From: Bacillota bacterium
GTDB taxonomy: Bacteria > Bacillota > Clostridia > Peptostreptococcales > Anaerovoracaceae
Assembly: GCA_017442785.1 (NCBI GenBank)
Contig: JAFRZB010000039.1
Location: forward strand, 1 to 59,939
Reading direction: 5' to 3'
Length of the DNA stretch: 59,939 nucleotides
Numbering within the stretch: the stretch's first letter is position 1; the number at the start of each line of letters is the position of its first letter. The notes below the pieces were generated by a model, which did not search any database, had not been told where the DNA came from, and saw only the letters and a list, made by a program, of their open reading frames with translations. Made by a program: the position numbers and the translations under genes. Positions 7,464 through 51,046 of the stretch are shown piece after piece.

Positions 7464-8645
7464 ATGAAAAAAACGCTTTTAAGAACCATATCCTGCCTGC
7501 TGACCCTCACGCTTTTGCTGTGCGGGCTTTCGTCATGCACGGCGTGGGATAATTTCTACAACGCGTTCATACACAAGAAGCCTCAGGAGGACAAGCTCAT
7601 AAGGATAGCGGTCTTTGAGCCCCTTACCGGAGAGTATGCTTCTGCGGCAGCGGACGAGATAGCCGGAATAGAGCTGGCGCAGAAGCTCTTCCCCACCGTC
7701 CTGGACTCCACCGTGGAACTGGTATACTTCGACAACAAGTCCAACCCCGACACCGCAAAGCAGCTGGCCGAGGAGATCGCCGGAGATGAGACAATAAAGC
7801 TGGTGCTGGGAAGCTACGGCAACACCATGACCGTGGCTGCGGGAGATATATTCGAGGAGGCAGGGCTTCCGGCGATAGCCATCACCTGCACCAACCCCCT
7901 CATAACCAATACCAATACCAATTACGCAAGAGTCTCTCCGGTGGACAGCTTCGAGGCATTGGGAGCCGCGGAGTTCCTTGCAGTCAACCTCGGGATAACG
8001 AACGCCTGCGCCCTGTATCAGGCAGGAAACGACCTTTCGAGGACGAGAGCGGAAGCCTTCGTATCTGCCTTCTCGAAATACAAGGGAAACGAGACACCGT
8101 CCCTGTACGCGATAAGCTTTGCCGAAGGCGAGAGCTATGACGCTCTGTTCGAGGAGATAGAAGCCGCCGGCGCAAAGGCCATATACTTCCCGTCGGATCC
8201 GGAGCTTGCGAAGGGGCTTATAGCCGAGACTCAGTCCCTGGGCTTTTCCTTCGAATGGGTAGGTAGCAGCCTCTGGGCAAGATCAGGCATACAGAACTCG
8301 TACTACACCATAGACTACGACCCGTACGAGACGCTCTCCTCCATGACGCAGACCTTCCTCAGGTCCTACAGGGAGAAGTACGGAAGGGACGAGACACCGT
8401 CCTACGAAACGGCGCTCGGCTTTGACGCCTATCTGCTTGCGCTTGCGGCGATACGCGAGGCCGAGAGCGCGGATGACAGAGCAGCCGTACTGAGCTCGCT
8501 CTACGCTATCAACGGACTCTCCGGAGCCACGGGCACAATAACGATGAGCCCCAGCGGAGACCCGATAAAAAGCATATTGATAGAATCGATAACAGGAAGC
8601 GTGGAAGCGCCCATAGCGTCGGTGCTTCCGGGCAGCGGTAAATAA
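7464..8645 (+). CDS. Lipoprotein solute-binding protein, branched-chain amino acid type
   Basis: A 393-residue secreted lipoprotein. The signal peptide ends in the lipobox LSSC (Cys about residue 28). The rest is a type I periplasmic binding protein of the Peripla_BP_6/LivJ family, with the opening strand IRIAVFEPLTGEYASAAADEIAG and the GSYGNTMTVAAGDIFEEAG block. The ligand is probably an amino acid or small amide. No ABC permease or ATPase gene is nearby, so it may serve a distant transporter or act as a sensor. There is no clear ribosome binding site, and translation may be coupled to the gene before it. Confidence 0.82.
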   Translation: MKKTLLRTISCLLTLTLLLCGLSSCTAWDNFYNAFIHKKPQEDKLIRIAVFEPLTGEYASAAADEIAGIELAQKLFPTVLDSTVELVYFDNKSNPDTAKQLAEEIAGDETIKLVLGSYGNTMTVAAGDIFEEAGLPAIAITCTNPLITNTNTNYARVSPVDSFEALGAAEFLAVNLGITNACALYQAGNDLSRTRAEAFVSAFSKYKGNETPSLYAISFAEGESYDALFEEIEAAGAKAIYFPSDPELAKGLIAETQSLGFSFEWVGSSLWARSGIQNSYYTIDYDPYETLSSMTQTFLRSYREKYGRDETPSYETALGFDAYLLALAAIREAESADDRAAVLSSLYAINGLSGATGTITMSPSGDPIKSILIESITGSVEAPIASVLPGSGK

Positions 8646-8657
8646 AGGAGAAAGAAC

Positions 8658-8888
8658 ATGAAAGAACAGATCATAAGCGTACTTGAGCAGATCAGACCCT
8701 TCCTTCAGAGAGACGGAGGAGACGTTGAATTCGTAGATTACAGCGACGACGACAAGATAGTCTTCGTAAAGCTCCAGGGACACTGCGCGGGCTGCCCGCA
8801 CGCTCAGGCCACCGTTAAGGGCGGAATAGAGTCCATACTCAGAGAGCAGTTCCCCGACGGCGTATCCGCAGTAGAGGCAATAAACTAA
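8658..8888 (+). CDS. NifU-like Fe-S cluster scaffold/carrier protein
   Basis: A 76-residue protein made only of the NifU C-terminal (Nfu) domain. It has the opening IRPFLQRDGGDVEFV and the cluster-binding CAGCPHA motif (Cys-x-x-Cys). These proteins carry [4Fe-4S] clusters to target enzymes as dimers. AAAGGAG stands nine bases before the ATG. Confidence 0.93.
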   Translation: MKEQIISVLEQIRPFLQRDGGDVEFVDYSDDDKIVFVKLQGHCAGCPHAQATVKGGIESILREQFPDGVSAVEAIN

Positions 8889-8918
8889 AGAAGGAGCGCG
8901 GCACAGACCGCCGGGACC

Positions 8919-10439
8919 ATGAGATCTTCAAGAAGAAAGAAGAAAGTAAGGATCAAATGGGGAAGGTTCATCCTTTCCCTGTTCGTGCTGTGCGCGGTAG
9001 TGCTTGCCGGGCTGCTGTTCTGGCCGCTGCCGGATAAGCCGGCTGAAAACACCAATACTGCAGAGCCGCCGGAAAACACCGTGCCCGAGCCCCCTGTGCA
9101 GACGGAATTCTCCTTAAGGTTCCGCTGCGTGGGAGACATTATGGCGCACGAGAGGAACTACATAGCCGCCAGACAGGCGGACGGATCCTACAGCTTCGCC
9201 GACACTTACGTATACGTTGAAAAATATCTGAAGAACGCCGATATGACCCTCGGAAACTTCGAGACCACCTTCAGCGGATCCACCAAGTATTCCAGCTTCC
9301 CGCGCTTTAACTCGCCGGAGGCTCTGGCTACAGACTCCCGCGCCGCAGGCATCAACATTGCCCTGTTCGCAAACAACCACATGCTGGACACAGGCGTGGC
9401 GGGAGCCAGGAACACTGTTAAGGTGCTCAGGGAGAACGGCTTCGACGCCGTGGTAGGAGCGCGCGCCGAGACCACCGAGGACCGCTCCGCGGTAGTTGAC
9501 GTCAAGGGCGTAAAGGTAGGCATAGTCTCCTTCGGCTACGAGACCCGCATAGTAAACGGCCACAGGACCATGAATGGTTCCACCATGGCCGCGGACGCGC
9601 CGGACTACATCAACTGCTTCCGCTACGACAACGGCCACGTTTACAAGGAGCACCTGGACAACATCCTCAATGAGATAAAGTGGTGCAAGGACAACGGCGC
9701 CGAGCTGGTGATATGCTACTTCCACTGGGGCACCGAGTACAAGAGCACTCCGGACAACGCCGACAAGGAGCTGGCAAGGCTCTGCGCGGAGGCCGGAGCG
9801 GACATGATATTCGCGTCCCACCCGCATATCATGCAGGCAATAGACGTAATAGAGGTGGAGGTCCCCTACCCGGCCGAGCCGGAACCTCAGCCCGCTGCTG
9901 AGCCCGAACCTCAGCCCGAGCCTGCAAAGGAAGAGGAAAAGGAAAGCTGGATAATCCGCCTGCGCAAGGCCTTCGGCCTTATTAAGGAAGAAGCTCAGCC
10001 TGAGCCGCAGCCCGAACCTGAACCTGAGCCGCAGCCCGAACCCGAGCCCAAGCCCACCAGCTGGACCAAGACCGTCCCGGTGTTCTACTCCATGGGCAAC
10101 TTCATCTCCAACCAGAGGTACGAGACCCTGCGCGGAGGAAGCGCCGCGGAGAGCAGAGCTGCGCGCTGGACGGAGCGCGGAATGATAGCCAATGTGGACC
10201 TGGTGTACAACAGACAGACCGGAGAGGTCACCTACACCGACATCAGCTGCATCCCAACCTATGTGGACAGGGACGATCTCCACGGAACGCCCTACAAGTT
10301 CGCGATAATCCCGCTGCTGGACGATCTGCCGAACAATCCGATGCTCAAGCGCACGGGCAGAGTCCAGAGGGCACAGGATGCTCTCAAGGCCATCACCGAG
10401 TTCCTCGGAGAGCAGTACATCTTCAAGGGAACGACATAG
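8919..10439 (+). CDS. CapA-family (PGA_cap) metallophosphatase-like membrane protein
   Basis: A 506-residue protein with an N-terminal basic stretch and one membrane anchor (about residues 11-32), so the large domain should be outside the cell. The PGA_cap fold is shown by CVGDIMAHERN, GNFETTFSG, ANNHMLDTGVAGA, ICYFHWGTEY and FASHPHIMQAID. This family includes CapA of poly-gamma-glutamate synthesis, but no capB or capC is near. An insertion of about 65 residues before the last strand is rich in Pro-Glu and Pro-Gln repeats, split by a helix-like segment around KESWIIRLRKAFGLIK. The best ribosome binding site, AAGGAG, is 22 bases from the ATG, which is too far. Translation may be weak or coupled. 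Confidence 0.8.
   Translation: MRSSRRKKKVRIKWGRFILSLFVLCAVVLAGLLFWPLPDKPAENTNTAEPPENTVPEPPVQTEFSLRFRCVGDIMAHERNYIAARQADGSYSFADTYVYVEKYLKNADMTLGNFETTFSGSTKYSSFPRFNSPEALATDSRAAGINIALFANNHMLDTGVAGARNTVKVLRENGFDAVVGARAETTEDRSAVVDVKGVKVGIVSFGYETRIVNGHRTMNGSTMAADAPDYINCFRYDNGHVYKEHLDNILNEIKWCKDNGAELVICYFHWGTEYKSTPDNADKELARLCAEAGADMIFASHPHIMQAIDVIEVEVPYPAEPEPQPAAEPEPQPEPAKEEEKESWIIRLRKAFGLIKEEAQPEPQPEPEPEPQPEPEPKPTSWTKTVPVFYSMGNFISNQRYETLRGGSAAESRAARWTERGMIANVDLVYNRQTGEVTYTDISCIPTYVDRDDLHGTPYKFAIIPLLDDLPNNPMLKRTGRVQRAQDALKAITEFLGEQYIFKGTT
9868..10053 (+). repeat. Pro-Glu/Pro-Gln coding repeats in the CapA-like gene
   Basis: Two tracts of short tandem repeats built from CCT/CCC-GAG/CAG codons (9868-9933 and 10000-10053) encode PEPQP-type repeats. 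They likely form a rigid extended spacer outside the membrane and could change length by slippage. Confidence 0.75.
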
Positions 10440-18359: not shown

Positions 18360-19436
18360 TTACTTTGAGAACGCGATCCTGGACTGCCTGTAGAGCTCCT
18401 CGCAGAAGGCCGGAGTGAGCATCTTGAAAGCCATTCCCGGCACCAGGCAGGGCTTGTCCTTTCTGCAGAACCTTGCCGCGTACTTTCTGGCCTCCTCTCT
18501 CTGCTGCTCCGGCGTGGAATCGTCCACATCGTAGTCCGGATAGACTCCGATGATGATCTTGTCGCCGTACATGTCGTAGAGCTTGGCCGTGTCGTTCATG
18601 GGCTGTCCGGCCCAGGAATCCCAGCCCGCAGCTATCATGTTGGGGACCTGCTTCTCTATCTTTCCGCAGGAATGGAAGTCCGCGATCTTACCCTTGGAGT
18701 GGATGAAATCCGTGACCTTCCTCATGTAGGGCACTATCATCTCCCTGACTACGTCCGGGCTGAAGAAGGTGTCCTTCTGGGCGCCCCAGTCGTCATGTAT
18801 GTAGAAGATATCCACCTGCGGGTAGTAATAGCAGTAGTGGTCGAAGATGTCCACGTACATGTCGGAAAGCTTGGTAAGGAAAGCGTGCACGGCGTCCTTC
18901 TGATCCTCGTCTATCAGGGCCATTATGGCTCCCTCAAACTCCATGAGGCTTATTATCCTCTCGAAGAATCCGTTCTGGAGCCACGCCTTTACCGGAACGC
19001 CGTCGTCGAAGAACGGCTTGTTGTACTCGGAGCTGTTCTTCCAGTCCCAGGCGTCTATGTCCGGCCAGACCAGGACCTTTTCCCAGTCGTTCATGTCTTC
19101 CAGCATGGGCTTTCCGGGACGCACCATGGAGCCCCGCACCTGCTTTATGTACTCCCACTCCACGCCGAACATGTCCTTGCCGCCGCCCTCGGTATCCGGG
19201 TCGAACGGCTTGCAGTCGAATACCATGCCGCGCGCTATGTTGTCCGGGTTTATCCTCGGGGCGAAGGTCTTATACTCGTTGCCCGTAAACTGCCAGACAG
19301 GCTCGTGCTTCTTGTAGAGAGACTCCGAGGCCTCCCTTACGGAGCACGGGAAATCGTAGATGTCCACCTCTCCGAACATGGTCTTCTTTTTATCGACCAC
19401 CTTCATCTCTTTTTCGCTGAACTTGGGAACTGACAT
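18360..19436 (-). CDS. Uroporphyrinogen decarboxylase (URO-D) family protein, probable methyltransferase
   Basis: A 358-residue URO-D-fold protein. In anaerobes this fold often serves corrinoid-dependent methyl transfer (MtaA/MtbA and O-demethylase types) rather than haem synthesis. A zinc-binding motif of that kind is seen in DFHSCGKIEKQVPN, with His and Cys two apart, and further on in CLVPGMAF. The segment DIFYIHDDWGAQKDTFFSPD is typical of the methyltransferase branch. No corrinoid protein or haem gene is next to it, so the substrate is unknown. AGGAGG lies seven bases before the ATG. A gap of 46 bases separates it from the gene upstream, and the two may be co-transcribed. Confidence 0.75.
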   Translation of the reverse strand: MSVPKFSEKEMKVVDKKKTMFGEVDIYDFPCSVREASESLYKKHEPVWQFTGNEYKTFAPRINPDNIARGMVFDCKPFDPDTEGGGKDMFGVEWEYIKQVRGSMVRPGKPMLEDMNDWEKVLVWPDIDAWDWKNSSEYNKPFFDDGVPVKAWLQNGFFERIISLMEFEGAIMALIDEDQKDAVHAFLTKLSDMYVDIFDHYCYYYPQVDIFYIHDDWGAQKDTFFSPDVVREMIVPYMRKVTDFIHSKGKIADFHSCGKIEKQVPNMIAAGWDSWAGQPMNDTAKLYDMYGDKIIIGVYPDYDVDDSTPEQQREEARKYAARFCRKDKPCLVPGMAFKMLTPAFCEELYRQSRIAFSK

Positions 19437-19482
19437 TTCATTACCTCCTGTGCAAATGATCCCGCTTTCTCAATGCCGCGGC

Positions 19483-19998
19483 CTAGCTGTAGAATGTCTG
19501 CTCTGTCTTTGCGATGGAATATGCCACAAGGAATGCCCAGTCTATGAACTCCTCCGAGGTAGTCACCTCCAGAGCGAATCTTGAGGTAAGCACGAAACTG
19601 CTCCCCTTGCCCGAGGACGTCACTATCTCAGCTATCTTGTCGCCCTTTAGGGTAACGTCATAGGCCATGCCCAGCCTTCCGCGCTGTATGCCGGACTCTA
19701 TCCTTATGCCGCGCTCGTGGAGATAGTCCCAGATCTTCTCGTTGTCGAACTTGAAATGGGACTTGGTGAAGGTGAACCCTCCCAGAATGCCGGAGGTCTC
19801 GCTGGTGACGGTGTGGCCGACCTTATGCACCTCACTCCTTCCCGTGATGTGGTTTATGAACTCGACGTCCGCCGCGCCGAACAGCGGCTGCTTGAGCACG
19901 TTGGCCTCATAGACCACTTCCTGATTATCGTCCTCCATCAGATATCCCTGCTTTACGGACGCCTTTCCCGGGTGAAAATAATATGTCTTAGTTTCCAT
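19483..19998 (-). CDS. Hypothetical protein, possibly LURP-one/tubby-like fold
   Basis: A 171-residue soluble protein I cannot place firmly. It has alternating short strands with motifs like YLMEDDNQEVVYEANV and a final hydrophobic helix FIDWAFLVAYSIAKTEQ. This recalls the LURP-one-related/tubby C-terminal barrel, in which a central helix fills the barrel. That link is by eye only. It overlaps the preceding small membrane protein gene by 11 bases and so is part of the same transcript. Confidence 0.5.
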   Translation of the reverse strand: METKTYYFHPGKASVKQGYLMEDDNQEVVYEANVLKQPLFGAADVEFINHITGRSEVHKVGHTVTSETSGILGGFTFTKSHFKFDNEKIWDYLHERGIRIESGIQRGRLGMAYDVTLKGDKIAEIVTSSGKGSSFVLTSRFALEVTTSEEFIDWAFLVAYSIAKTEQTFYS

Positions 19999-20470
19999 AG
20001 CCCCATTCCTCTTCCTGCTGTCTTAATCTTTTTATTTTCTGCATCGCCTTTACGATGCTAATTATCCCGCCAATCAGCGCAAGCGCTCCGACACCGATGC
20101 ATATGTACGGGATCAGTGCCTGGTTGCGCATCTGTACCACTTCGCCCGGATCCTCCGGATTATAAAAGACCTTGATATTGTCGCCGGCCTTTATGTTTGA
20201 AAGCACTCCGAGCTCGGATTCGTATTCCCTGCCGTTTACGGTGTATTTAACAGTAACATCGTACTCGGCGTCGTGGTGCGTACTGTCGCTGTCGGTATAC
20301 TCCTCCCGGACAAGCTCGGCCTTTGAGACGACCGCGCTGACCTCTTTGTAGTCCCTTGCATCACTGATGTTTCCCACAGTCACGAGCCCGAAGATAAGCA
20401 ACATCAGTCCGCCCGGGATGAGGAACCTGCCCAGGGTGGTCGCCTGCATAAGCTGAATAAACTTGTTCAT
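19988..20470 (-). CDS. DUF3592-like small membrane protein
   Basis: A 160-residue protein with a transmembrane helix near each end (about residues 13-32 and 116-140). The outer domain between them contains VKYTVNGREYESE and IKVFYNPEDPGEVVQ, both typical of DUF3592. The role of the family is unknown. I chose the ATG at 20470, which follows a G-rich AAAAGGGGGAGAG stretch. A TTG at 20488 is less likely. The basic, Glu-rich tail ends in the cytoplasm. Confidence 0.7.
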   Translation of the reverse strand: MNKFIQLMQATTLGRFLIPGGLMLLIFGLVTVGNISDARDYKEVSAVVSKAELVREEYTDSDSTHHDAEYDVTVKYTVNGREYESELGVLSNIKAGDNIKVFYNPEDPGEVVQMRNQALIPYICIGVGALALIGGIISIVKAMQKIKRLRQQEEEWGYGN

Positions 20471-20517
20471 CTCTCCCCCTTTTGGCAATTGTTAATAATA
20501 TAATTATGTTACAGAAA

Positions 20518-20608: not shown

Positions 20609-22510
20609 TCAGATCCTCAGCTGGCCGAAGAGCACGCAGGTCAGGCATGCCACGGTACCCATCAGGATCGCGGAGAGCCAGAGGTTTCCGGTCTTTCTGA
20701 AGAGGTAGGTGGATCCGCCGACTCCTACTGCCATGCCGGCCGGCATACCCCAGAGTCTCTGGGTGTCCGCGTTGAAGTTCAGCAGGAACGAAGTGTCGGC
20801 TGCGGAACCGATGGACTGGAAGTGCCACTTGAGGGCTATGATCAGCACCAGAGTGAACTCCGCCAGGAGCACGTTCACGACTATGGCCCTGAGAGTATCC
20901 TTCCATTCAACACCCGTGGAGGGGAGCCTGCGCTCGATGTTGTTTCCGAGGTTGGAGAGCACGAAGCACGGTACCCAGATGCAGATGTAGGGCAGGAAGT
21001 ACGGGATCTTGAAGAGCGGAATGCTCTTGAATCCGAAGAACCATGCGTAGAAGTCCGTACCGGTTATGGTCTCCTGCAGGAGGATCAGGCCGAAGGCTAT
21101 CGCAATGGTAGCGGTGGCTACGAGTATGGTCTTCCAGATGTAGCTGAAGGTTATCTTCTTCTCGCCGTAGGCGGTCATTCCGAGATCGCTTACGGTCATC
21201 TTCTGCTTCTTGCCGTCCGTAAGGCAGAAGAGGATGAAGGTCAGGACGCCAAGAACGGACAGACCGATTATGGTGAAGAACGCAACGTTGGCATAAGTAA
21301 GGTTGAAGCCTGCGCGGATGGCGTTCTTGTTCTGCGGTGTGAGTATGCCGAATGTACCGGTCTTGAGGACTATCCAGGGGAAGACTATGCCGCAGATGGC
21401 GCTTATCGCAAATCCCTTGCCGCGAAGGCCTATGTTTCTGGGAAGCGGCTGCTTAACAGCGCTGAATGCGGGAACTCCCTCGATCAGCATCAGTGCGATT
21501 GCGCAGATCAGAGCGCCGAAGCAGAGTATGCCTGCAAGTCCGATGTAGTCCTTGTACATCCATACCTGGTTGGAAGCCTCTATGTAATTGGGAACGTTGG
21601 CCTGGCCTACAGTCTCCTGAGCGAACCAGATGAGCTTTTCGATGGCGCCCTGGTTGACGAAGGCTGCCTCGTGGATGCGCTGATAGTCTCTGGAGGCGTA
21701 GAAAGCGTTGCCTGCCTCAAAGGATCCGTAGAGCTTGTCCAGCTCTATGTCTCCGCCGGTGTAGCCTGCCCTGCCCTCGAGCGCGGGAGCGGCCTTCATG
21801 GTGTCAGCGATGAATTTTTCCGCGGGGGACTCTACGTCGCCGTTGGTGGTGAGAACGTTGCCCTTATACTGGCTCCAGCCCTCCTGAAGCGCCTTGCCGT
21901 AGAAACTCATACCCATGCCGGAAGCGTTGATTACGCCGATAGTATTGTGCAGAACTCCGATCGCCTTGGCGGTGCAGCAGCCCATGGAGTGGCCCGCCGA
22001 GATGATCTTTGTAGCGTCTACATTTCTCATGGAGGCGAGCACATTGTAGTAAGCCTCGGCTACGTAGACCATTGCGGCTTCGTTGAGAGCCCACTCATCG
22101 ATGTACTGACCGGAATCTCCGGAACCGTACTGGTCTATGGAGAGAACTACGAATCCGCGTCTTGCGAACTCTACCGCCCAGGATTCGTGATTCCTGGCGT
22201 TTCCTGCGTTGCCGTGGGTGCACATGATAGCCGGCGCCGGGGTCTCATCTGTAGCATTGCTCGGGATATACACAAGAGCGCTTAGGGGAACTCCGTCCGG
22301 ACCGGTGATGGTGGTCCTTGTGATCTTCACGTTGCCGAAGCCCGTGACTGCGCCCCAGTTGAAGAACGCCAGTACGATAACAAGAGCCAGGGAGATCCAG
22401 AAGAATCTGTGGATGTTCTTCTTTCTCTTTGCCCTGCCCTCTTCGGTAAAGAACTCGTCGTGAAGTTTCTGATCCATTTTCTGATCATTTTCCTTGCTGA
22501 ACTTTGCCAT
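20609..22510 (-). CDS. Alpha/beta hydrolase fused to a polytopic membrane domain (copy 1)
   Basis: A 633-residue protein. After a charged N-terminus and one helix (about residues 36-52) comes an alpha/beta hydrolase domain with MCTHGNAGNARNHES, GFVVLSIDQYGSGDSG and the nucleophile elbow GHSMG (Ser175). From about residue 390 there are roughly seven transmembrane helices, including PRNIGLRGKGFAISAICG. The hydrolase is probably outside, between the first helix and the membrane domain. The substrate is unknown. The copy at 49061-50878 has the same order and shared signatures (GNARNHESWAVEF, PRNIGLRGKG, ERRLPSTG). I chose the ATG at 22510 with AAAGGAG before it; the open frame further upstream is not convincing. 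It is divergent from a LytTR regulator gene. Confidence 0.82.
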   Translation of the reverse strand: MAKFSKENDQKMDQKLHDEFFTEEGRAKRKKNIHRFFWISLALVIVLAFFNWGAVTGFGNVKITRTTITGPDGVPLSALVYIPSNATDETPAPAIMCTHGNAGNARNHESWAVEFARRGFVVLSIDQYGSGDSGQYIDEWALNEAAMVYVAEAYYNVLASMRNVDATKIISAGHSMGCCTAKAIGVLHNTIGVINASGMGMSFYGKALQEGWSQYKGNVLTTNGDVESPAEKFIADTMKAAPALEGRAGYTGGDIELDKLYGSFEAGNAFYASRDYQRIHEAAFVNQGAIEKLIWFAQETVGQANVPNYIEASNQVWMYKDYIGLAGILCFGALICAIALMLIEGVPAFSAVKQPLPRNIGLRGKGFAISAICGIVFPWIVLKTGTFGILTPQNKNAIRAGFNLTYANVAFFTIIGLSVLGVLTFILFCLTDGKKQKMTVSDLGMTAYGEKKITFSYIWKTILVATATIAIAFGLILLQETITGTDFYAWFFGFKSIPLFKIPYFLPYICIWVPCFVLSNLGNNIERRLPSTGVEWKDTLRAIVVNVLLAEFTLVLIIALKWHFQSIGSAADTSFLLNFNADTQRLWGMPAGMAVGVGGSTYLFRKTGNLWLSAILMGTVACLTCVLFGQLRI

Positions 22511-22612
22511 TGCTGTCTCCTTTAAGTTAATTTCAAATAGTATTATTGCGGCTTGCACAGGAAGTCTACCAATTCCGGGGAGCCCTGTAAACAGCTCTGG
22601 CACCACGGGCAT

Positions 22613-22653
22613 CAGCGGCGACCTGAGCGGCATGTCTGAATGCATGAGCGGCA
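22613..22653 (+). promoter_or_regulatory. Direct repeats in the divergent spacer of module 1 (candidate regulator site)
   Basis: The nine bases TGAGCGGCA occur twice, at 22624-22632 and 22645-22653, with a gap of 12 bases and a period of 21. A partial copy CAGCGGC is at 22613-22619. LytTR-domain regulators typically bind two 9-bp direct repeats separated by about 12 bp, so the geometry fits, although the bases differ from the classical AlgR/AgrA consensus. Confidence 0.45.
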
Positions 22654-22736
22654 AAAAACGATACATGAATGGATAATGCCCCACAAGAAGCCTTTTATAT
22701 GATATACTTATAACAACTTGTTTCGGGAGGGACGAA

Positions 22737-23456
22737 ATGACGCACCGTATAGCTGTATGCGATGACGAGAAGAACATGCTCCGCCAGATATCCAGCTATC
22801 TGGACCAGTGGCAGAAGGAGACGGGAAACGAGCTTGAGCCGTTCTTCTTTTCGTCCGCGGAAGACCTGCTTCAGAACATGGACAGGAAGACCTCTCTTGT
22901 GCTTCTGGACATCTCCATGGGCGGAATGACCGGGATGGACTGCGCAAAGGCGCTGCGCGCCGAAGGATTCCCGGGGGAATTCATATTCATTACCAGCATG
23001 GAGGATTACGCGCTTGAGGGCTACAGGGTCCACGCCTTCGCGTTCCTTACCAAGCCTCTCGTTTACGGAGAGCTTAAGCAGGCCTTAGGCGAATTTACGG
23101 CAAAGCACAGCGCAAAGCGACCCGCCGTAATTCCGGTGGACACGGCAGGCGGCACAAAGATCATCAGGATAAGCAGCATACTTTATGCAGAGGTCTACGG
23201 AAGGGAAACGTCCTTTATCCTTAAGGACGGAACACGGGTGGATTCCGTTATCCAGCTCTCCTCCGTAGAGGAAGACCTGGCCAGATACGGGTTCTTCCGC
23301 TGCCACAGAAGCTGCCTTGTCAACATGAAATATATAGAAAACATTTCCGGCACGGAGCTTACCATGGCGGACGGCAGCGTAGTTCCCCTAAGCAAGCACC
23401 GCGCAAAGGAGTTCATGTCCTCCTACGCCCGCTTTATGAAGGTGGACCTGCGATGA
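22737..23456 (+). CDS. LytTR-family response regulator (module 1)
   Basis: A 239-residue AgrA/LytR-type regulator. The receiver domain (residues 1-120) has the acidic pair at 9-10, the phosphoacceptor Asp58 in LVLLDISMGG and the Lys in FLTKPL. The LytTR DNA-binding domain (about 135-235) is marked by FFRCHRSCLVNMKYIENI and VPLSKHRAKEFMSSY. It should be phosphorylated by the kinase encoded next, whose gene overlaps it by four bases. GGGAGG stands before the ATG. Likely targets are its own operon and the divergent hydrolase gene. Confidence 0.92.
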   Translation: MTHRIAVCDDEKNMLRQISSYLDQWQKETGNELEPFFFSSAEDLLQNMDRKTSLVLLDISMGGMTGMDCAKALRAEGFPGEFIFITSMEDYALEGYRVHAFAFLTKPLVYGELKQALGEFTAKHSAKRPAVIPVDTAGGTKIIRISSILYAEVYGRETSFILKDGTRVDSVIQLSSVEEDLARYGFFRCHRSCLVNMKYIENISGTELTMADGSVVPLSKHRAKEFMSSYARFMKVDLR

Positions 23457-24772
23457 ATTTCATCTGGATCTCCAGCTTTGCCGCGGATACGGCCTTCATA
23501 TGGCTGTTCTTCAAACGGAGCGCTTACACGCCGCAAAGGCAGCGCAAATGGCTGAAGCCCGTCCTTGCGGCGCTTCTCATAACGCTCTACCTCAACGACT
23601 CTTTAATGCCCATCCCCTATGCGTCTGTGAGGGTCGCAGTACGCGCAGCCATCTATTTCCTGTGGATATTCCTTGCGGAAGGAGTGCCCTGGCGGCCTTC
23701 CGCCTACGCGGCGGTCTTCTGGACCGGTATATATACTCTCTTTCAGAACGTCGTCTTCGGGCCGCGGCTGTACATTTTCTTTTCGGGACAGACAGACATC
23801 ACCGGCTCCCGCTTCTGGAGCCAGATCATCATCTCGCTCATCAACATCGTCATCCGGCTCGTCTACTTCGGCATCCTTTCCCGGATCCTTCCCTTCGAGG
23901 GCATCGCGGGAGCAGAGGTCTTCCATATACTGTTCGCTGCCGGAGTCTGCGCCATGTCCATATACACAAAGGATACCAGCGCCCGCATGAGGAGCTTCTT
24001 TGAAGAAGGGCCCTCACTTTTCTCCGTGTACTTTGTGATAATACACATCGCGCTCCTTTTGGCGCTTATTGCGTTTGAGATGTCCAGACGGCGTGCAGTG
24101 GAAAAAGCGTCGCTCCAGATACAGAACAACGCCGCGGAAGCCCTGATGAGAAGCATAGAGGACCGTCAGATGTCAGAAGATGCCGTAAGGACCCTGCGCC
24201 ACGATCTGAAAAATCACGCGGTATCCCTCCAGCTGCTTTTGGAACAGGAAGACACAGAAGCGGCAAAGGCTTATCTTTCCAACTTCCTTGAAGCCGCTAA
24301 AAACCCTGTCGACGGTTTCTCAACAGGAAACAGGCTCCTGGACGGGCTGTTCGCGCAAAAACTGCTCCCGGCCAGAAGACAGGGCGTGAATGTCAGCACC
24401 TCTCTTGACTTCTCGGAGGGCTCTTTTATAGATAACTACGACCTGTGCGTTATGATGGGCAACATACTGGACAACGCCGCAGAGGCCTGCGCAGCCCTTC
24501 CGAAGGACGCGGAAAGGTTCATAAAGATATCCGGCGGACCTGCAGCAAACTATATGCTTATAGAGGTCGCCAATTCGAGCGCAAGAAAGGCCGATCTTCT
24601 TAACGGACTTCCCGCTACCAGCAAGAAGGACAAGGCAATGCACGGATTCGGTCTGAGAAGCGTCAAAAACGTTCTTGCACACTACGGGGGCACCATGGAT
24701 ATAGAGCAGACGGAAAGCGTCTACTCCATTACGCTTATGATCCCGAGAAAAGGAGGCGCTCGCAATGAGTGA
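23453..24772 (+). CDS. GHKL-domain (AgrC-like) sensor histidine kinase (module 1)
   Basis: A 439-residue kinase with about six transmembrane helices in the first 210 residues and almost no outside loops, as in AgrC-type peptide or lipid sensors. The phosphorylated His250 lies in LRHDLKNHAVSLQL. The ATP-binding domain has NILDNAAEACAAL and the G-box HGFGLRSVKNVLAHYGG. It overlaps the regulator gene by four bases and the following CapA-like gene by eight, so all three genes form one operon. The signal is not known. No gene for an AgrD/AgrB-type peptide is present. Confidence 0.9.
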   Translation: MNFIWISSFAADTAFIWLFFKRSAYTPQRQRKWLKPVLAALLITLYLNDSLMPIPYASVRVAVRAAIYFLWIFLAEGVPWRPSAYAAVFWTGIYTLFQNVVFGPRLYIFFSGQTDITGSRFWSQIIISLINIVIRLVYFGILSRILPFEGIAGAEVFHILFAAGVCAMSIYTKDTSARMRSFFEEGPSLFSVYFVIIHIALLLALIAFEMSRRRAVEKASLQIQNNAAEALMRSIEDRQMSEDAVRTLRHDLKNHAVSLQLLLEQEDTEAAKAYLSNFLEAAKNPVDGFSTGNRLLDGLFAQKLLPARRQGVNVSTSLDFSEGSFIDNYDLCVMMGNILDNAAEACAALPKDAERFIKISGGPAANYMLIEVANSSARKADLLNGLPATSKKDKAMHGFGLRSVKNVLAHYGGTMDIEQTESVYSITLMIPRKGGARNE

Positions 24773-25979
24773 AACGATAACAGTCCTGGGCGTGGGAGAT
24801 ATCATCCTGGACGCTCCGGATCCGGAAAAGTATTTCGATACCAGTAAGGACATCTTAAGGGCGGCGGATATCGCCGTCGGAAACATGGAGGACCCGCATA
24901 CAGACCGCCCGAGTTGGAGCAATATGGAGTCCCACTCCGCTCCGGCGTCGGCCCTTGATAACCTCAAAGCCTTCAAATACGCAGGTTTTGATGTGGCCAC
25001 GATAGGCGGCAACCACTGCTTCGATCAGGGTCCCTTCGGTATAACAGACCCCATGGAGTATTTCAGATCTGCAGGCATAGCCACCTGCGGCTCAGGGGCA
25101 AACTGCGACGAGGCTAGAAAGCCTGCAGTAGTTGAAAGAAAAGGCATCAGGACCGCCTTCCTCCATTACAACCTGACCGGCCCGCGCGAATGCTACGCCA
25201 CGGTGATGAAGGCCGGCTGCGCCTACATAAGGATAGCCACAGCCTACTGCAACGACAGGGCAGAGCCCGGCGGATCCCCCTCCGCCATCTACACCATAGC
25301 AGATCCCCGCGGAAAAAAGAACATGGCGGACGACATACTGGCAGCAAAAAAAGCTGCGGACCACGTGATAGTCTATTTCCACAGCGGAAGCCCCGGAAAG
25401 GCTCTCCTGAACCAGTACGAGCTGGACCTTACCCACTACGCCGTGGACATGGGTGCCGCAGCTGTGCTCTGCTGCCACACCCACGCCATAGCGAGCATGG
25501 AGATCTACAGAGGAAAGCCGATATACTACGGCCTTGGGAACTTCGTTACCGTCACCGGAGCCATGGACCCGGACGCTCCAAATGCCAGGCAGCGCCGCAC
25601 CAACTTCTACGGCTGGCCGGGAATACAGCCCTGGTGGGATTTCGACGTCTTCAAGATGCTCGGACCCGGAGACGTGCCCAACTACCCGTTTGCGGAATAC
25701 TCCAGGAACACAATGATAGCCAAGCTGGAATTCAGTAAGGAAGGACTGATCTCGGCGGGCTTCATACCCTGCTGGATAAACGACGCGGCGCAACCGACCC
25801 CGGTCACCAGGGACGGCAAAGGCAGGGAAGTGGTGGAATACATAGCGGACTGGGAGAAGAAGGCAGGCTTTGATTTCCCCTTCGCCTGGAACGAAGAAGG
25901 TACCGAGATAATGTTCGACCTCAGCAAGGACACCAAGTCCGTGTATCTGGACCCGCCGCCGGAGTTCGGCCGCTACTGA
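24765..25979 (+). CDS. CapA-like (PGA_cap) metallophosphatase, no signal peptide
   Basis: A 404-residue protein of the same superfamily as the CapA-like protein at 8919-10439, but only distantly related. Family marks are VLGVGDIILDAPDPEKYF, VGNMEDPH, ATIGGNHCFDQG, VIVYFHSGSPGK and CHTHAIASMEIYRGKP. There is no signal peptide or membrane helix, so it should work in the cytoplasm. Its ATG overlaps the end of the kinase gene, which ties it to the two-component operon. Substrate unknown. The second copy of the module lacks this gene. Confidence 0.75.
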   Translation: MSETITVLGVGDIILDAPDPEKYFDTSKDILRAADIAVGNMEDPHTDRPSWSNMESHSAPASALDNLKAFKYAGFDVATIGGNHCFDQGPFGITDPMEYFRSAGIATCGSGANCDEARKPAVVERKGIRTAFLHYNLTGPRECYATVMKAGCAYIRIATAYCNDRAEPGGSPSAIYTIADPRGKKNMADDILAAKKAADHVIVYFHSGSPGKALLNQYELDLTHYAVDMGAAAVLCCHTHAIASMEIYRGKPIYYGLGNFVTVTGAMDPDAPNARQRRTNFYGWPGIQPWWDFDVFKMLGPGDVPNYPFAEYSRNTMIAKLEFSKEGLISAGFIPCWINDAAQPTPVTRDGKGREVVEYIADWEKKAGFDFPFAWNEEGTEIMFDLSKDTKSVYLDPPPEFGRY

Positions 25980-47271: not shown

Positions 47272-47312
47272 TAGACTGTATATGAGTTCGACAAAAAAGG
47301 AAGGTGCCGCAA

Positions 47313-48134
47313 ATGGATCAGAAGGAACGTCTGGACAGGCTCGTAGAGATATTCAAGGAAGACTCTGTCCTGTATAAGGACATGGAGACTCCGAAGGACG
47401 ACGAAGGCAAAAGGCAGCTCCTGCGCTCTCTCATGAACATAAGGATGCCCAAGGCAATGCCCCGGGAAGTCCTTGAGCTTCAGGACGAATACCTTAAGGA
47501 GCGCAGCCTGGAAAAAGGAATAGTACACCTTAAGGACATTCCGGCCGCAGCGGAGCTCGGCAGCCGCCATGCTTTTTCTGATAAGCTCTCGATATGGAAG
47601 GGAGACATCACAAGGCTGGCCGCGGACGCCATAGTAAACGCGGCGAATTCGCAGATGCTGGGATGCTTCATACCCATGCACAACTGCATCGACAACTGCA
47701 TACACTCCTTTGCGGGAGTGCAGCTGCGGGAGGAGTGCAGCCGCCGCATGGATGCGCTAAGAGAGGAGCACGGACCGGACTACGAACAGCCGACCGCCGT
47801 TCCCATGCTTACGGACGCCTACGACCTCCCCGCAAAGAAGGTCATCCACATAGTAGGCCCCATAGTTTCCGGAGTGCTGACAAAAGATCTGGAGGAGGAC
47901 CTTGCAGCCTGCTACAGGAACACACTGGATCTGTGCCTCGAAAACGGCCTCCGCTCCGTTGCCTTTTGCTGCATATCCACCGGCGTGTTCCGCTTCCCCG
48001 GAGGGCGGGCATCAGAGATCGCAGTAAAGAACGTAACGGACTGGCTCCGGAAGCATCCGGACGCGGTAGACAGAGTCATTTTCAACGTCTTTAATGACAG
48101 GGACAAAGAATATTATGAACAACGGCTTTTCTAA
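47313..48134 (+). CDS. Protein-ADP-ribose hydrolase, zinc-type macrodomain
   Basis: A 273-residue protein with a helical N-terminal part of about 85 residues and a macrodomain. The ADP-ribose pocket shows WKGDITRLAADAIVNAANS and CCISTGVFRFPGG. The stretch MLGCFIPMHNCIDNCIHSF carries the Cys and His residues that mark the zinc-dependent macrodomain class paired with SirTM. It would remove ADP-ribose from protein. AAGGAAGG stands eight bases before the ATG at 47313; a GTG at 47304 is less likely. Its 3' end overlaps the SirTM gene by 20 bases. Confidence 0.9.
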   Translation: MDQKERLDRLVEIFKEDSVLYKDMETPKDDEGKRQLLRSLMNIRMPKAMPREVLELQDEYLKERSLEKGIVHLKDIPAAAELGSRHAFSDKLSIWKGDITRLAADAIVNAANSQMLGCFIPMHNCIDNCIHSFAGVQLREECSRRMDALREEHGPDYEQPTAVPMLTDAYDLPAKKVIHIVGPIVSGVLTKDLEEDLAACYRNTLDLCLENGLRSVAFCCISTGVFRFPGGRASEIAVKNVTDWLRKHPDAVDRVIFNVFNDRDKEYYEQRLF

Positions 48135-49005
48135 GCTTTCCGAAGCTATAAAAACAGCAGAAGCCGTAGTCATAGGCGCGGGCGCAGGGCTCTCCGCCTC
48201 GGCGGGGTTTTCCTACAGCGGGGAACGCTTTGAGAAGTACTTTCCGGACTTCATCAAAAAGTACCGTATGGAAGACATGTATTCCGGCGGCTTCATCGTG
48301 ATGCAGCGTCCCCCGGAAGAGCTGTGGGCATACTGGAGCCGCTACATATACATAAACCGCTACATGGATCCGCCAAGGCCTGTTTACGATATGCTGCTGG
48401 ATGTGATAAGAGACAAAGACTATTTCGTCATTACCACGAACGTGGACCACTGCTTCCAGAAGGCAGGCTTCGACAAAAGCAGGCTCTTCTACACCCAGGG
48501 GGACTACGGCCTCTGGCAGTGCAGCAAGCCCTGCCACGAAAAGACCTACGACAACAAGGAGACTGTGCGGGAGATGGTGCTTGCTCAGGGCTTTACCATT
48601 GCGGAGGACGGCACGCTGACGGTATCGGAAGGGACGATGCTTAAGGCGGAAGTCCCGTCCGCGCTGGTCCCCTTCTGCCCCGTCTGCGGAAGGCCCATGA
48701 GCATGAACCTTAGGGCAGACGATACCTTCGTGGAAGACGAAGGCTGGCACAGGGCGCTGGAAAGATACTCGGACTTTATCGAAAAGCGCAGAGGGCGCCG
48801 CATGCTCTACCTGGAGCTTGGAGTCGGGATGAATACCCCAGGCATAATAAAATACCCGTTCTGGCGCATGACCAACGAGGACCCGAATGCAGTATACGCC
48901 TGCGTAAACTACGACCGCGCCTTCGCGCCCGACGCCATAAAGGCAAGGTCCGTATGCTTCAGCGGTGACATAGGCGAAGTGCTTGAAATGATGATGAATA
49001 ATTAA
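48115..49005 (+). CDS. Class M sirtuin (SirTM), protein ADP-ribosyltransferase
   Basis: A 296-residue Sir2-fold protein. The NAD pocket has VVIGAGAGLSASAGFSYSG (residues 18-36) and ITTNVDHCFQKAGF (106-119). The zinc ribbon uses Cys136, Cys140, Cys188 and Cys191. Gln128 of TQGDYGLWQC stands where ordinary sirtuins have the catalytic His, as expected for SirTM enzymes that transfer ADP-ribose instead of removing acyl groups. In staphylococci and streptococci SirTM modifies a lipoylated GcvH-like protein encoded beside it. No such gene or lipoate ligase is present here. I prefer the ATG at 48115; one at 48094 is also possible. Confidence 0.88.
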   Translation: MNNGFSKLSEAIKTAEAVVIGAGAGLSASAGFSYSGERFEKYFPDFIKKYRMEDMYSGGFIVMQRPPEELWAYWSRYIYINRYMDPPRPVYDMLLDVIRDKDYFVITTNVDHCFQKAGFDKSRLFYTQGDYGLWQCSKPCHEKTYDNKETVREMVLAQGFTIAEDGTLTVSEGTMLKAEVPSALVPFCPVCGRPMSMNLRADDTFVEDEGWHRALERYSDFIEKRRGRRMLYLELGVGMNTPGIIKYPFWRMTNEDPNAVYACVNYDRAFAPDAIKARSVCFSGDIGEVLEMMMNN

Positions 49006-49060: not shown

Positions 49061-50878
49061 TTACATTATTCTGAACTGTCCGTAGAGGGAGGCTGCCAGG
49101 CAGCATACGATGCCCATGGTGAAGGCGCCGAGCCATACGGAGCCGCTCTTTCTGAAGAGATAGGTCTGGCCTATTCCGGCAAGAGTCATTCCGACCGGCA
49201 TGCCCCACAGACGGCAGATGGCTACGCCCCAGTTCGCAAGCGCCGTAGCGTTGCTTCCCACAACGTGGATCTGGATGTGGTTCTCTATCAGGACCAGAGC
49301 AGTTATCATGATCATGGAGAGCAGTGAGTTGAATACGACTGCTATCACGAAGTCCTTCTTGTCGTTGCCGGTGGAGGGCAGGCGGCGCTCAACATTCATG
49401 CCGAGGGCTGCGATTATGAAGGCCAGGATCCAGAAGACCATGTACGGAATGTAGTTGATGAACTTGTTCCAGGGGATGGGCCTGAAGCCGAAGAACAGGC
49501 AGTAGAAGTCTGTTCCCAGAACGTCGCCCTGCAGGCGCAGGTAGCTCCATCCGGCTGCTACGGCGATCAGAGCTATAAGGAAGGCCTTTCCGATAAGCTT
49601 CCAATCCAGCTTGGTCTGCTTGGCTTCTGAGGTGAGTCCGAGGTCGCGGAGATTGGCCTTGTGCTTCTTTCCGTCGGTGAGAAGGAATACAGCCAGCATT
49701 ATCAGGCCGAGCAGGTTGATACCCAGGACCGTTGTGAACGCGTAGTTCTGCATGTTTCCGCCGAAGAGCTTGGTGGACTTATAGATATTGGTTATGAGGT
49801 TGTAGATCGGCCCGCCGAAACGTATCGTTATGAGCGGGAAGACCAGAGCCGCTACGATGCTCAGGGCCAGGCCCTTGCCGCGGAGTCCTATGTTCCTGGG
49901 CATGGGCTGGATGACGCCCTCAAAGCCCTTGACATTGGTTCCGATGTAGATGGCCAGGGTGATGATGAAGAACACGAAGGAGTACATTCCGAGAAGTCCT
50001 ATGACGTCCTTCCACAGCCAGATCTGGTTGCTGCCTTCAATGTAATTGGGGATGTTGTCGTGGCCTATGGCATCCTGGGCGAAGTTGAGCAGGTTTCCGA
50101 TGCACTCGGAGCTTATGAAGGCCGCCTCGTGGATCATGTCCTGCTGGCGGATAACGAGGAATGCGTTGCCCTGTTCGAAGGACCCGAGTATCGTGTCGGT
50201 CGGCACCCTGTTCTTATCGTCATAGCCCGGGAATCCGGTCTTGGCGAGGAGCGATCCGACTCTGCCCCAGTAATTCTTTTCCGCGGAGCTCTTGTCTGCG
50301 GTACCGGTAAGAGTAAGGATGTTTCCGTGGTAGACCTCGTCCTTAGTGGCTACGCCCGGAGAGATGAGATTGCAGAGGAGAACTGCCTTGGGGTTGTTCC
50401 TTGCAGCAAGGAAGTAAGCGGGGTCTGTACCCATGGAATGACCGCCGTAGACGACATTGTCATGATCTACGCAGCCGAGAGTTCCTATGTAGTCGATGTA
50501 TTCCTGGAGAGCCGGCCATTCGGTATCGGTTATTGCCTGACCGTTGAAGTCGGATCCGCCGTTGCCGTACCAGTCTACGGAAAGGACTACGAAGCCTCTT
50601 CTGGAGAATTCCACTGCCCAGGACTCGTGGTTGCGGGCGTTTCCGGATATTCCGTGGAACATGATGAGAGCCGGTGCCGGGTTTTCTTCCGTCGCTGTCT
50701 TAGGCACGTAGAGCAGCGCTGTGTTCTCGTATCCGTTCTGAGATACAAGGTCCATCTGGACGATCTTGGTGCTTCCGGTGCCGGTGATCACGGCCCAGTT
50801 TACGATAGAGATGACGACCATCACTGCCAGAGCAATGAGGAACGCTCTCGTTGCGTTGGACTTCTTTGCGGTGTCCAT
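49061..50878 (-). CDS. Alpha/beta hydrolase fused to a polytopic membrane domain (copy 2)
   Basis: A 605-residue paralogue of the protein at 20609-22510. One N-terminal helix (about residues 11-32) is followed by the hydrolase domain: MFHGISGNARNHES, GFVVLSVDWYGNGGSD and the elbow GHSMG (Ser148). The last 260 residues have about seven membrane helices, with PRNIGLRGKGLALSI and MNVERRLPSTGNDKKD. The two copies share order and motifs but differ over much of their sequence, so the duplication is old. GGAGG stands before the ATG at 50878. It is divergent from the second LytTR regulator gene. Confidence 0.82.
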   Translation of the reverse strand: MDTAKKSNATRAFLIALAVMVVISIVNWAVITGTGSTKIVQMDLVSQNGYENTALLYVPKTATEENPAPALIMFHGISGNARNHESWAVEFSRRGFVVLSVDWYGNGGSDFNGQAITDTEWPALQEYIDYIGTLGCVDHDNVVYGGHSMGTDPAYFLAARNNPKAVLLCNLISPGVATKDEVYHGNILTLTGTADKSSAEKNYWGRVGSLLAKTGFPGYDDKNRVPTDTILGSFEQGNAFLVIRQQDMIHEAAFISSECIGNLLNFAQDAIGHDNIPNYIEGSNQIWLWKDVIGLLGMYSFVFFIITLAIYIGTNVKGFEGVIQPMPRNIGLRGKGLALSIVAALVFPLITIRFGGPIYNLITNIYKSTKLFGGNMQNYAFTTVLGINLLGLIMLAVFLLTDGKKHKANLRDLGLTSEAKQTKLDWKLIGKAFLIALIAVAAGWSYLRLQGDVLGTDFYCLFFGFRPIPWNKFINYIPYMVFWILAFIIAALGMNVERRLPSTGNDKKDFVIAVVFNSLLSMIMITALVLIENHIQIHVVGSNATALANWGVAICRLWGMPVGMTLAGIGQTYLFRKSGSVWLGAFTMGIVCCLAASLYGQFRIM

Positions 50879-50921: not shown

Positions 50922-51046
50922 AGCGGGATTAAACCACAAAGAATACAGTGATTTCAAGGCTTTTCCCCAAGCGGGAGGCTTACGCCCCAAGTGGCGATCC
51001 TTGTTCCCCTGACTGGCCGCCTGGCTTCCTGAATGGACAAAGCGGG
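50922..51046 (+). promoter_or_regulatory. Repeated AGCGG-type motifs in the divergent spacer of module 2
   Basis: CCCCAAG(C/T)GG occurs at 50965-50974 and 50985-50994, a period of 20 bases. AGCGGG also occurs at 50922-50927, 50970-50975 and 51041-51046, the last touching the -35 box. The AGCGG core recalls the TGAGCGGCA repeats of module 1. These are candidate regulator sites, but the match is short. Confidence 0.35.

Follow-up and report, generated by a model that had tools for sequence, protein, structure and literature searches.

Recurrent pairing of a hydrolase-membrane fusion with a LytTR/GHKL two-component system in an Anaerovoracaceae genome and its relatives

BtsS/BtsR and YpdA/YpdB are pyruvate-sensing LytTR systems, each of which drives a single transporter gene. 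Gut Clostridia commonly have AgrC-like kinases that lack an accompanying peptide gene, and what most of these sense is not known. In the excerpted text of PMC6193735, LytTR Regulatory Systems (HdrRM, BrsRM) are built without a kinase, from a LytTR regulator plus a membrane inhibitor, and employ half-sites such as ACCACTTAC-12 bp-ACCACTTAT, while published LytTR promoters are described there as carrying repeats 11–13 bp apart, about 10 bp ahead of the -35 box.

Layout of the two units and comparison with described systems

The window, a stretch of 59,939 nucleotides from an Anaerovoracaceae genome, holds two units in which a hydrolase-membrane fusion faces a LytTR regulator and a GHKL kinase (Table 1). 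The earlier note had described the first as a divergent unit with overlapping regulator, kinase and CapA-like genes and had reported that the hydrolase-regulator-kinase set recurs further along the window. All of the named genes were found, as was the second set, and the overlaps in set A amount to 4 bases between regulator and kinase and 8 bases between kinase and CapA. The open reading frame of hydrolase A extends to 22777; the ATG at 22510 is the start that fits the relatives, and a gap of 226 bp thus separates hydrolase A from regulator A. Hydrolases A and B were the sole full-length copies found in the window genome, which is 80%-complete, a third match being a weak 57-codon piece. The genome has three LytTR genes in all, two of which lie within these two units.

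The CapA-like phosphatase had also been counted as part of the unit. It is present in the window, but among 49 related loci it adjoins the regulator or kinase solely in the window and at L044, and it was not beside the kinase in the same-genus loci L038, L039 and L045. CapA was consequently ruled out as a part of the conserved set.

Table 1. Features of the two units in the window.
Feature	Position	Strand	Evidence
Hydrolase-membrane fusion A, 633 aa	20609..22510	-	Abhydrolase_1 30.6 bits (cut-off 25.8); hydropathy; alignment
Candidate promoter of hydrolase A, TTTACA-17 bp-TAGACT, begins 9 bp past last half-site	22563..22591	-	Consensus scan
Tandem LytTR-type half-sites A, period 21 bp: CCATTCATG, CCGCTCATG, CCGCTCAGG, CCCGTGGTG	22601..22672	-	Pattern scan
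Response regulator A, receiver and LytTR DNA-binding domain, 239 aa	22737..23456	+	LytTR 2.7e-17; Response_reg 2e-13
GHKL histidine kinase A, 439 aa, N-terminal half membrane-embedded	23453..24772	+	HATPase_c_5 6.9e-22; hydropathy
CapA-like (PGA_cap) protein	24765..25979	+	PGA_cap 5.9e-49
Hydrolase-membrane fusion B, 605 aa	49061..50878	-	Abhydrolase_1 5.1e-11; 41% identical to A
Candidate promoter of hydrolase B, TTGAAA-18 bp-TTTAAT, begins 8 bp past last half-site	50928..50957	-	Consensus scan
Tandem LytTR-type half-sites B, spacing 20, 22, 20 bp: CCATTCAGG, CCAGTCAGG, CCACTTGGG, CCGCTTGGG	50966..51036	-	Pattern scan
Response regulator B, receiver and LytTR domain, 236 aa	51134..51844	+	Domain search
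GHKL histidine kinase B, 441 aa	51862..53187	+	Domain search; hydropathy

In both copies the regulator joins a receiver to a LytTR domain, the kinase joins HATPase_c_5 to a membrane part, and predicted tandem repeats about 21 bp apart precede the -35 box of the putative target gene. AgrC/AgrA systems likewise have a membrane-embedded HATPase_c_5 GHKL kinase, a LytTR regulator and tandem repeats ahead of the -35 box. The module proteins however score far below the cut-offs of the AgrC and AgrA models, and the conserved putative target here is the hydrolase. AgrB was matched in 1 of 17 genomes, drafts that are incomplete, and not in the window genome, which indicates that signalling is not of the Agr type; the earlier claim of a missing peptide gene is borne out to that extent. 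No peptide gene was seen between hydrolase, regulator and kinase. For the two regulators, BtsR is the best-scoring model, at 56.6 and 74.7 bits, both values below its cut-off of 246. As in BtsS/BtsR and YpdA/YpdB, a LytTR system appears with one main putative target, which would be an outward-facing hydrolase here and is a transporter there. Compared with HdrRM and BrsRM, as far as the excerpts of PMC6193735 describe them, the half-sites are closely similar and the repeats lie about 10 bp from the -35 box, whereas the regulator here has a receiver domain and a kinase, the gene of which adjoins it in both window copies. No description of the hydrolase-kinase-regulator pairing was found in the open-access literature, as judged from search listings.

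Recurrence of the pairing and sites upstream of the hydrolase

Regulator and kinase were found close to the hydrolase in 26 of the 49 related loci, several of which are truncated by contig ends, and in three gene orders. In 31 loci chosen by hand among the 49, one for each of 31 genomes, a LytTR gene lay within 5 kb in 19, where chance would give 0.59, and a million simulations never exceeded 7; the pairing is thus beyond chance. Gut and rumen bacteria are among the carriers of the module, and one cultured carrier, Pseudoflavonifractor sp. An85, has four copies of it. The two gut clades of the hydrolase tree comprised 27 linked, 11 unlinked and 3 undecided rows, while distant fusions had no LytTR/GHKL neighbour in the stretch seen, both in the tree (4 of 4) and in a later search (7 of 7). 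The outcome that the earlier note named as counting against its pairing, homologues mostly lacking such neighbours, thus holds for the distant fusions and fails within the two gut clades. Searches of the whole order (8 of 393 genomes) and class (8 of 391), with the window genome counted in each, added few loci, mostly distant relatives. No relatives were found in 110 candidate stretches from viral contigs, and plasmids gave 5 distant matches, none covering 80%.

Tandem LytTR-type half-sites 20–22 bp apart precede 29 of the 32 linked hydrolases and none of the 10 unlinked controls, as scored with a pattern that was partly derived from the very loci later counted. In co-directional loci the half-sites lie directly upstream of the hydrolase gene itself (13/13). 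In 18 of the 23 regions the best promoter began 8–10 bp beyond the last half-site, as compared to 8.1% of shuffles, and half-sites with a fitting promoter precede linked hydrolases in each of the three gene orders. Based on the tandem half-sites and this geometry, the hydrolase gene is very probably the target of the LytTR regulator, and the suggestion that the hydrolase is the output protein is well supported.

Half-sites were missing at L051, at the second hydrolase of L078 and at L117, the one really new linked locus; the other new linked locus, L176, is a near copy. The unlinked locus L082 has a weak half-site pair. When repeats were counted free of any pattern, a distance of 21 bp separated linked from unlinked loci less cleanly than the pattern did and was the top distance in the unlinked controls too, largely owing to region L077. 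Using a matrix from other genera, the B sites ranked first in the window, yet within reach of shuffles, and the A sites were not singled out.

The kinase branch and its co-variation with the hydrolase

All 29 linked kinases tested group together in the GHKL tree, in a single branch (support 85) that includes 4 others, of which two adjoin a hydrolase, one is cut by a contig end and one is without a hydrolase. A further 16 GHKL kinases from the same genomes sit outside the branch. Distances between hydrolases correlate with distances between their kinases (Mantel r 0.60, 0/5000 permutations). Partner swaps were also observed, in that the clade II hydrolases of L074 and L071 are joined to kinases nearest those of the window's clade.

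The earlier note had suggested, among other roles, that the hydrolase may make, remove or sense the signal. These results bear on whether the hydrolase makes or destroys the ligand of the kinase, which would create a feedback loop of the kind known from quorum sensing or quenching. The shared branch, the kinases staying with the hydrolase despite changes in gene order, the correlated distances and the apparent control of the hydrolase by the regulator, which such a loop requires, are all consistent with this role. A private ligand would however hinder the partner swaps, at least 10 hydrolases of the same family occur without the kinase, and AgrB is confined to the single genome mentioned above. 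We consider such a loop unlikely.

The hydrolase, its genomic neighbours and a proposed role

Fusion A consists of an N-terminal helix, an alpha/beta hydrolase domain (about residues 60–305) and about eight C-terminal membrane helices, as judged from hydropathy and profiles, slightly more helices than the about seven of the earlier note. Both A and B exceed the Abhydrolase_1 cut-off. The proposed triad of hydrolase A is Ser175, Glu227 and His280, and the Ser, Asp/Glu and His columns, the acid column having been picked by eye, are conserved in 33 of 33 aligned members. The hydrolase domain appears to face outward, given the basic residues ahead of the first helix. Profile matches of the hydrolase part to the PDB start at 4.3e-18, and in fold and motifs it resembles Abhydrolase_1 and Hydrolase_4 proteins (feruloyl esterase EST1E, MHETase-like esterases, DPP4-like peptidases), from which it differs by fusion to a membrane domain that has neither Pfam name nor PDB match. 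The membrane domain gave zero PDB sequence matches at E 5 or better and nothing convincing among the 25 families listed of 43 in a Pfam scan of 33 members. The fusion architecture also occurs in archaea and alphaproteobacteria, annotated there merely as alpha/beta hydrolase, and the distant fusion in Maritalea comes after a TRAP organic-acid transporter.

A CPBP (Rce1-like) identity of the membrane domain was considered on account of a terminal YLFRKTGNLW that resembles the third CPBP motif. A profile comparison by hhalign with 22 CPBP proteins taken from relatives gave it no support, the probability being 14.7% over 15 columns, and CPBP was absent among the 25 of 43 Pfam families listed for the fusion.

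The large multi-helix domain outside any named family would suit a fusion that acts as co-sensor or inhibitor, binding the kinase in the membrane with the hydrolase domain as ligand-binding part. CPBP-type membrane proteins that modulate kinases provide precedents. In LytTR regulatory systems, in the excerpts of PMC6193735, the regulator likewise has a membrane inhibitor as its partner. A protein that merely binds would however not need a triad conserved in every aligned member, the fusion occurs kinase-free at many loci, including those in archaea and alphaproteobacteria, and the CPBP comparison was negative, making this role more doubtful still than the feedback loop.

Among hydrolase loci at least 15 kb long, 16 of 27 carry genes for 2-hydroxyacid/2-oxoacid fermentation, as compared to 0 of 20 control regions; the gene families counted were chosen since they recur in these same loci. 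Models were confirmed on representatives for 2-hydroxyacyl-CoA dehydratase, CoA-transferase III, VorB-type oxidoreductase, phosphotransacylase and acetokinase. The link stems mostly from the sister clade, with 13 of 17 clade II loci as compared to 3 of 10 clade I loci by our own sorting, and the gene set was not seen within the window. Aromatic acids are hinted at by a DAPG-hydrolase domain close to L077 and by a vinylphenol-reductase-like protein close to L067; another protein, at L073, that was assigned by eye to the latter family had no Pfam match.

The earlier note had also considered that the hydrolase acts on membrane lipids, and a related possibility is detoxification of membrane-active compounds in a stress response. 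The membrane anchoring, weak family matches that range over lipases and esterases, and GDPD and AMP-binding genes elsewhere in the window would fit. The neighbours in relatives are however fermentation genes and not lipid or envelope genes, pointing toward acid and amino-acid fermentation; action on lipids is left without support and this explanation is very improbable.

We favor, with moderate confidence, a nutrient-type two-component system that switches on an outward-facing hydrolase, which would in turn supply the fermentation of acids or amino acids, each unit having one main target. On detecting a small ligand in or at the membrane, the membrane-embedded GHKL kinase would phosphorylate the LytTR regulator. 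Bound to the two to four tandem half-sites that immediately precede the hydrolase -35 box, the regulator would turn the gene on. The product would be a serine hydrolase anchored in the membrane through its own multi-helix domain. It would cut an ester or amide outside the cell and so yield an organic acid or an amino acid that can be fermented; the substrate or product of the hydrolase is probably what the kinase senses. The recurrent pairing, the common kinase branch, the sites with their promoter geometry, the conserved triad and the metabolic neighbours in the sister clade are computed results, and activation rather than repression, the topology, the substrate class and the ligand are what we infer.

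A bolder and rather speculative extension is hydrolase-coupled sensing, in which the outward-facing hydrolase frees, beside the kinase in the membrane, the kinase's own ligand, and kinase, regulator and hydrolase form an exchangeable cassette moving between gut lineages. If true, this would be an undescribed class in which cells tune a gene to a gut polymer or conjugate that is not directly sensed. One kinase branch goes with one enzyme family and the predicted sites of the regulator point at that enzyme; the signal may thus be testable through what the hydrolase cuts.

Hydrolase units in the window

The divergent unit described in the earlier note, a minus-strand hydrolase-membrane fusion opposite a LytTR response regulator and a GHKL kinase, was claimed to occur in two copies, and both (units A and B) are present in the window, which belongs to a draft genome of 1.73 Mb that is 80% complete. 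The hydrolases A (633 aa) and B (605 aa) share 41% identity and both pass the Abhydrolase_1 cut-off. For the membrane part, no named family was found among the matches listed and no PDB sequence matched at E 5; an identity with the Rce1-like CPBP intramembrane proteins failed on comparison. The nucleophile and histidine columns were invariant in 33/33 hydrolase rows, while the acid column, picked by eye, held Asp (25 rows) or Glu (8 rows). As basic residues precede the first helix, the placement of charges suggests that the hydrolase domain would face outward. The closest solved relatives are esterases, the feruloyl esterase EST1E and DPP4-like peptidases, which do not fix the substrate.

The CapA-like gene placed in the set by the earlier note does follow the kinase gene of unit A, with an overlap of 8 bases, but elsewhere it adjoins the set only in locus L044 and was rejected as a conserved member. 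AgrB was found in 1/17 genomes and is absent from the window genome. Further features of the window and of related loci are collected in the table.

Coordinates of the two hydrolases and of features observed in the window and at related loci
Sequence	Positions	Strand	Feature
Window	8919-10439		Another PGA_cap protein, partly of low complexity; its gene immediately follows that of a periplasmic binding protein
Window	18360-20488	-	Same-strand genes downstream of hydrolase A (URO-D family, unnamed, DUF3592); might be cotranscribed with it
Window	20609-22510	-	Hydrolase-membrane fusion, unit A
Window	47304-49005		Macro-domain gene overlapping a gene of sirtuin-like look (by eye; no Pfam match at 0.001)
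Window	49061-50878	-	Hydrolase-membrane fusion, unit B
L043 (Actinomycetota)	8252-9688	-	Hydrolase opposite a LuxR-type (GerE) regulator, which replaces LytTR and kinase and has an N-terminal part of hydrophobic look (by eye)
L047	9956-13885		Tandem pair of hydrolase fusions behind a single regulator-kinase pair
L077	4460-6904		FAD-binding domain fused to a DAPG-hydrolase domain, near the hydrolase locus

Pairing with the regulator and kinase

Matches to the hydrolase family were found in 15/296 genomes of the window's taxonomic family and, at a strict limit, in 8/393 genomes of its order and 8/391 of its class, the window genome being included in each. A scan of named genomes yielded 49 loci, mostly from gut and rumen Clostridia, with two from Actinomycetota and one from Erysipelotrichaceae. 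In the count of homologues with LytTR/GHKL neighbours that the earlier note proposed, both genes were found near the hydrolase at 26/49 loci, several others being cut by contig ends. In a chance test on 31 loci, hand-chosen at one per genome and with LytTR genes counted genome-wide, a LytTR gene lay within 5 kb of the hydrolase in 19/31 loci versus 0.59 expected, the maximum in a million simulations being 7. Linked loci occur in divergent, co-directional and convergent orders, so the link is more than inherited gene order.

A GHKL tree was built from 49 kinases listed from nine genomes, 29 linked and 20 others. All 29 linked kinases fell in one branch (support 85) together with four others, of which L104 and L105 have a hydrolase next door (that of L105 cut by a contig end), L113 sits at a contig end and L107 has no hydrolase in 17 kb. 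The remaining 16 lie outside this branch, and no part of a hydrolase gene occurs within about 1.5 kb of them. Distances between hydrolases were correlated with those between kinases (Mantel r 0.60, 19 pairs, 0/5000 permutations).

The tree of 45 hydrolases splits into a pair of large gut clades plus a set of distant members. Clade I, which contains hydrolases A and B and in which most rows carry GHSMG, has 14 linked rows, 1 unlinked and 2 undecided; for clade II, in which GYSAG prevails, the numbers are 13, 10 and 1, respectively; the four distant fusions are all unlinked. Well-supported branches force at least six changes of state, and the link was thus repeatedly gained or lost. L074 and L071 are clade II hydrolases whose kinases are nearest those of units A and B, which is partner exchange. 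The same membrane profile was found in fusions from Haloarcula (8e-24) and Maritalea (1.2e-18). This hydrolase-membrane architecture is carried by a plasmid of the archaeon Haloarcula (L168) and by one of the alphaproteobacterium Maritalea (L167), there immediately after a TRAP transporter.

Several loci depart from the usual arrangement. The cultured Pseudoflavonifractor sp. An85 has four hydrolase modules (L046, L078, L117, L121), each accompanied by a regulator and a kinase of its own. In the L047 genome the LytTR match reads through a TAA, so that regulator may be broken. TetR- or GntR-looking genes (by eye) lie near the hydrolase in L066, L074, L075, L077, L082 and L083 and in L055, L060 and L072, mostly at loci lacking LytTR. 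Hydrolase frames in two or more pieces (L049, L052, L069) are decay or assembly errors.

Predicted sites and promoter geometry

The divergent gaps contain tandem 9-base half-sites, SCANTYRBG, spaced 20–22 bp on the hydrolase strand. This pattern derives from visual inspection of some of the loci and was broadened once, which means that the counts below are not blind. Half-sites were found upstream of 11/11 divergent, 13/13 co-directional (there upstream of the hydrolase gene itself) and 5/7 other linked hydrolases, or 29/32 once the later locus L117, without sites, is included; this count leaves out the second hydrolase of the L047 tandem pair, also without sites, and contains near copies that are not independent (L038/L039; L063/L073/L080/L081). 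Upstream of the co-directional regulator, half-sites occurred in 3/6 tested regions (L061, L062 and L065, not L057, L069 or L044). Among hydrolases with no nearby regulator, pairs were found in 0/10 controls and 0/2 more (L055, L084), and L082 has a weak pair. They were absent in 7/7 distant fusions. Where a contig end truncates the locus (four cases), pairs occur in L050 and L059 but not in L056 or L076.

Three checks of the pattern gave a mixed outcome. A matrix built with the window's own sites scored both divergent gaps much higher than the remainder of the window, which is circular. With a matrix from other genera the B sites ranked first (19.4, 18.7; shuffles up to 21.2), and the best A pair reached only 12.8. 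In a pattern-free repeat count, 21 bp was the leading distance for the divergent and the other linked regions, and ranked second for co-directional ones; it also led in the controls, there largely due to L077. Promoter position played no part in making the pattern. The best -35/-10 pair begins 8–10 bp past the last half-site in 18/23 regions versus 8.1% of shuffled sequences, and does so with a score of at least 8 in 17/23 versus 2.1%.

The layout is shared with published LytTR promoters, where repeats (half-sites e.g. ACCACTTAC) are spaced by 11–13 bp and lie some 10 bp ahead of the -35 (PMC6193735); AgrA sites are likewise described just upstream of AgrA-controlled promoters (PMC4227749). 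Site counts, promoter geometry and these layouts combined indicate that the LytTR regulator is likely to target the hydrolase gene through the predicted sites, whose position favours activation.

Metabolic context and regulatory reading

At 16/27 loci of at least 15 kb there is at least one member of 14 gene families of 2-hydroxyacid/2-oxoacid fermentation, compared with 0/20 control stretches taken from ten of the genomes that carry the loci; the families were selected for recurring at these loci, and L064 and L068 are near copies. Representatives match D-2-hydroxyacid dehydrogenase, 2-hydroxyacyl-CoA dehydratase (near HadB and HadC, though below the cut-off), CoA-transferase III, VorB (above the cut-off), phosphotransacylase, acetokinase and acyl-CoA dehydrogenase; EtfA, EtfB and lactate-dehydrogenase-like were named by eye. 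A vinylphenol-reductase-like flavoprotein was observed at hydrolase locus L067. By our sorting, such loci make up 13/17 in clade II versus 3/10 in clade I, and the metabolic reading is therefore weaker for the window's own clade; no fermentation gene set of that kind was seen in the window. A role of the hydrolase in fermentation supply is a fair guess.

The unit itself is real and recurrent, and very probably functional. It is highly likely that a LytTR two-component system would drive a membrane hydrolase, probably an outward-facing one, and this regulatory link is the strong part of the reading.
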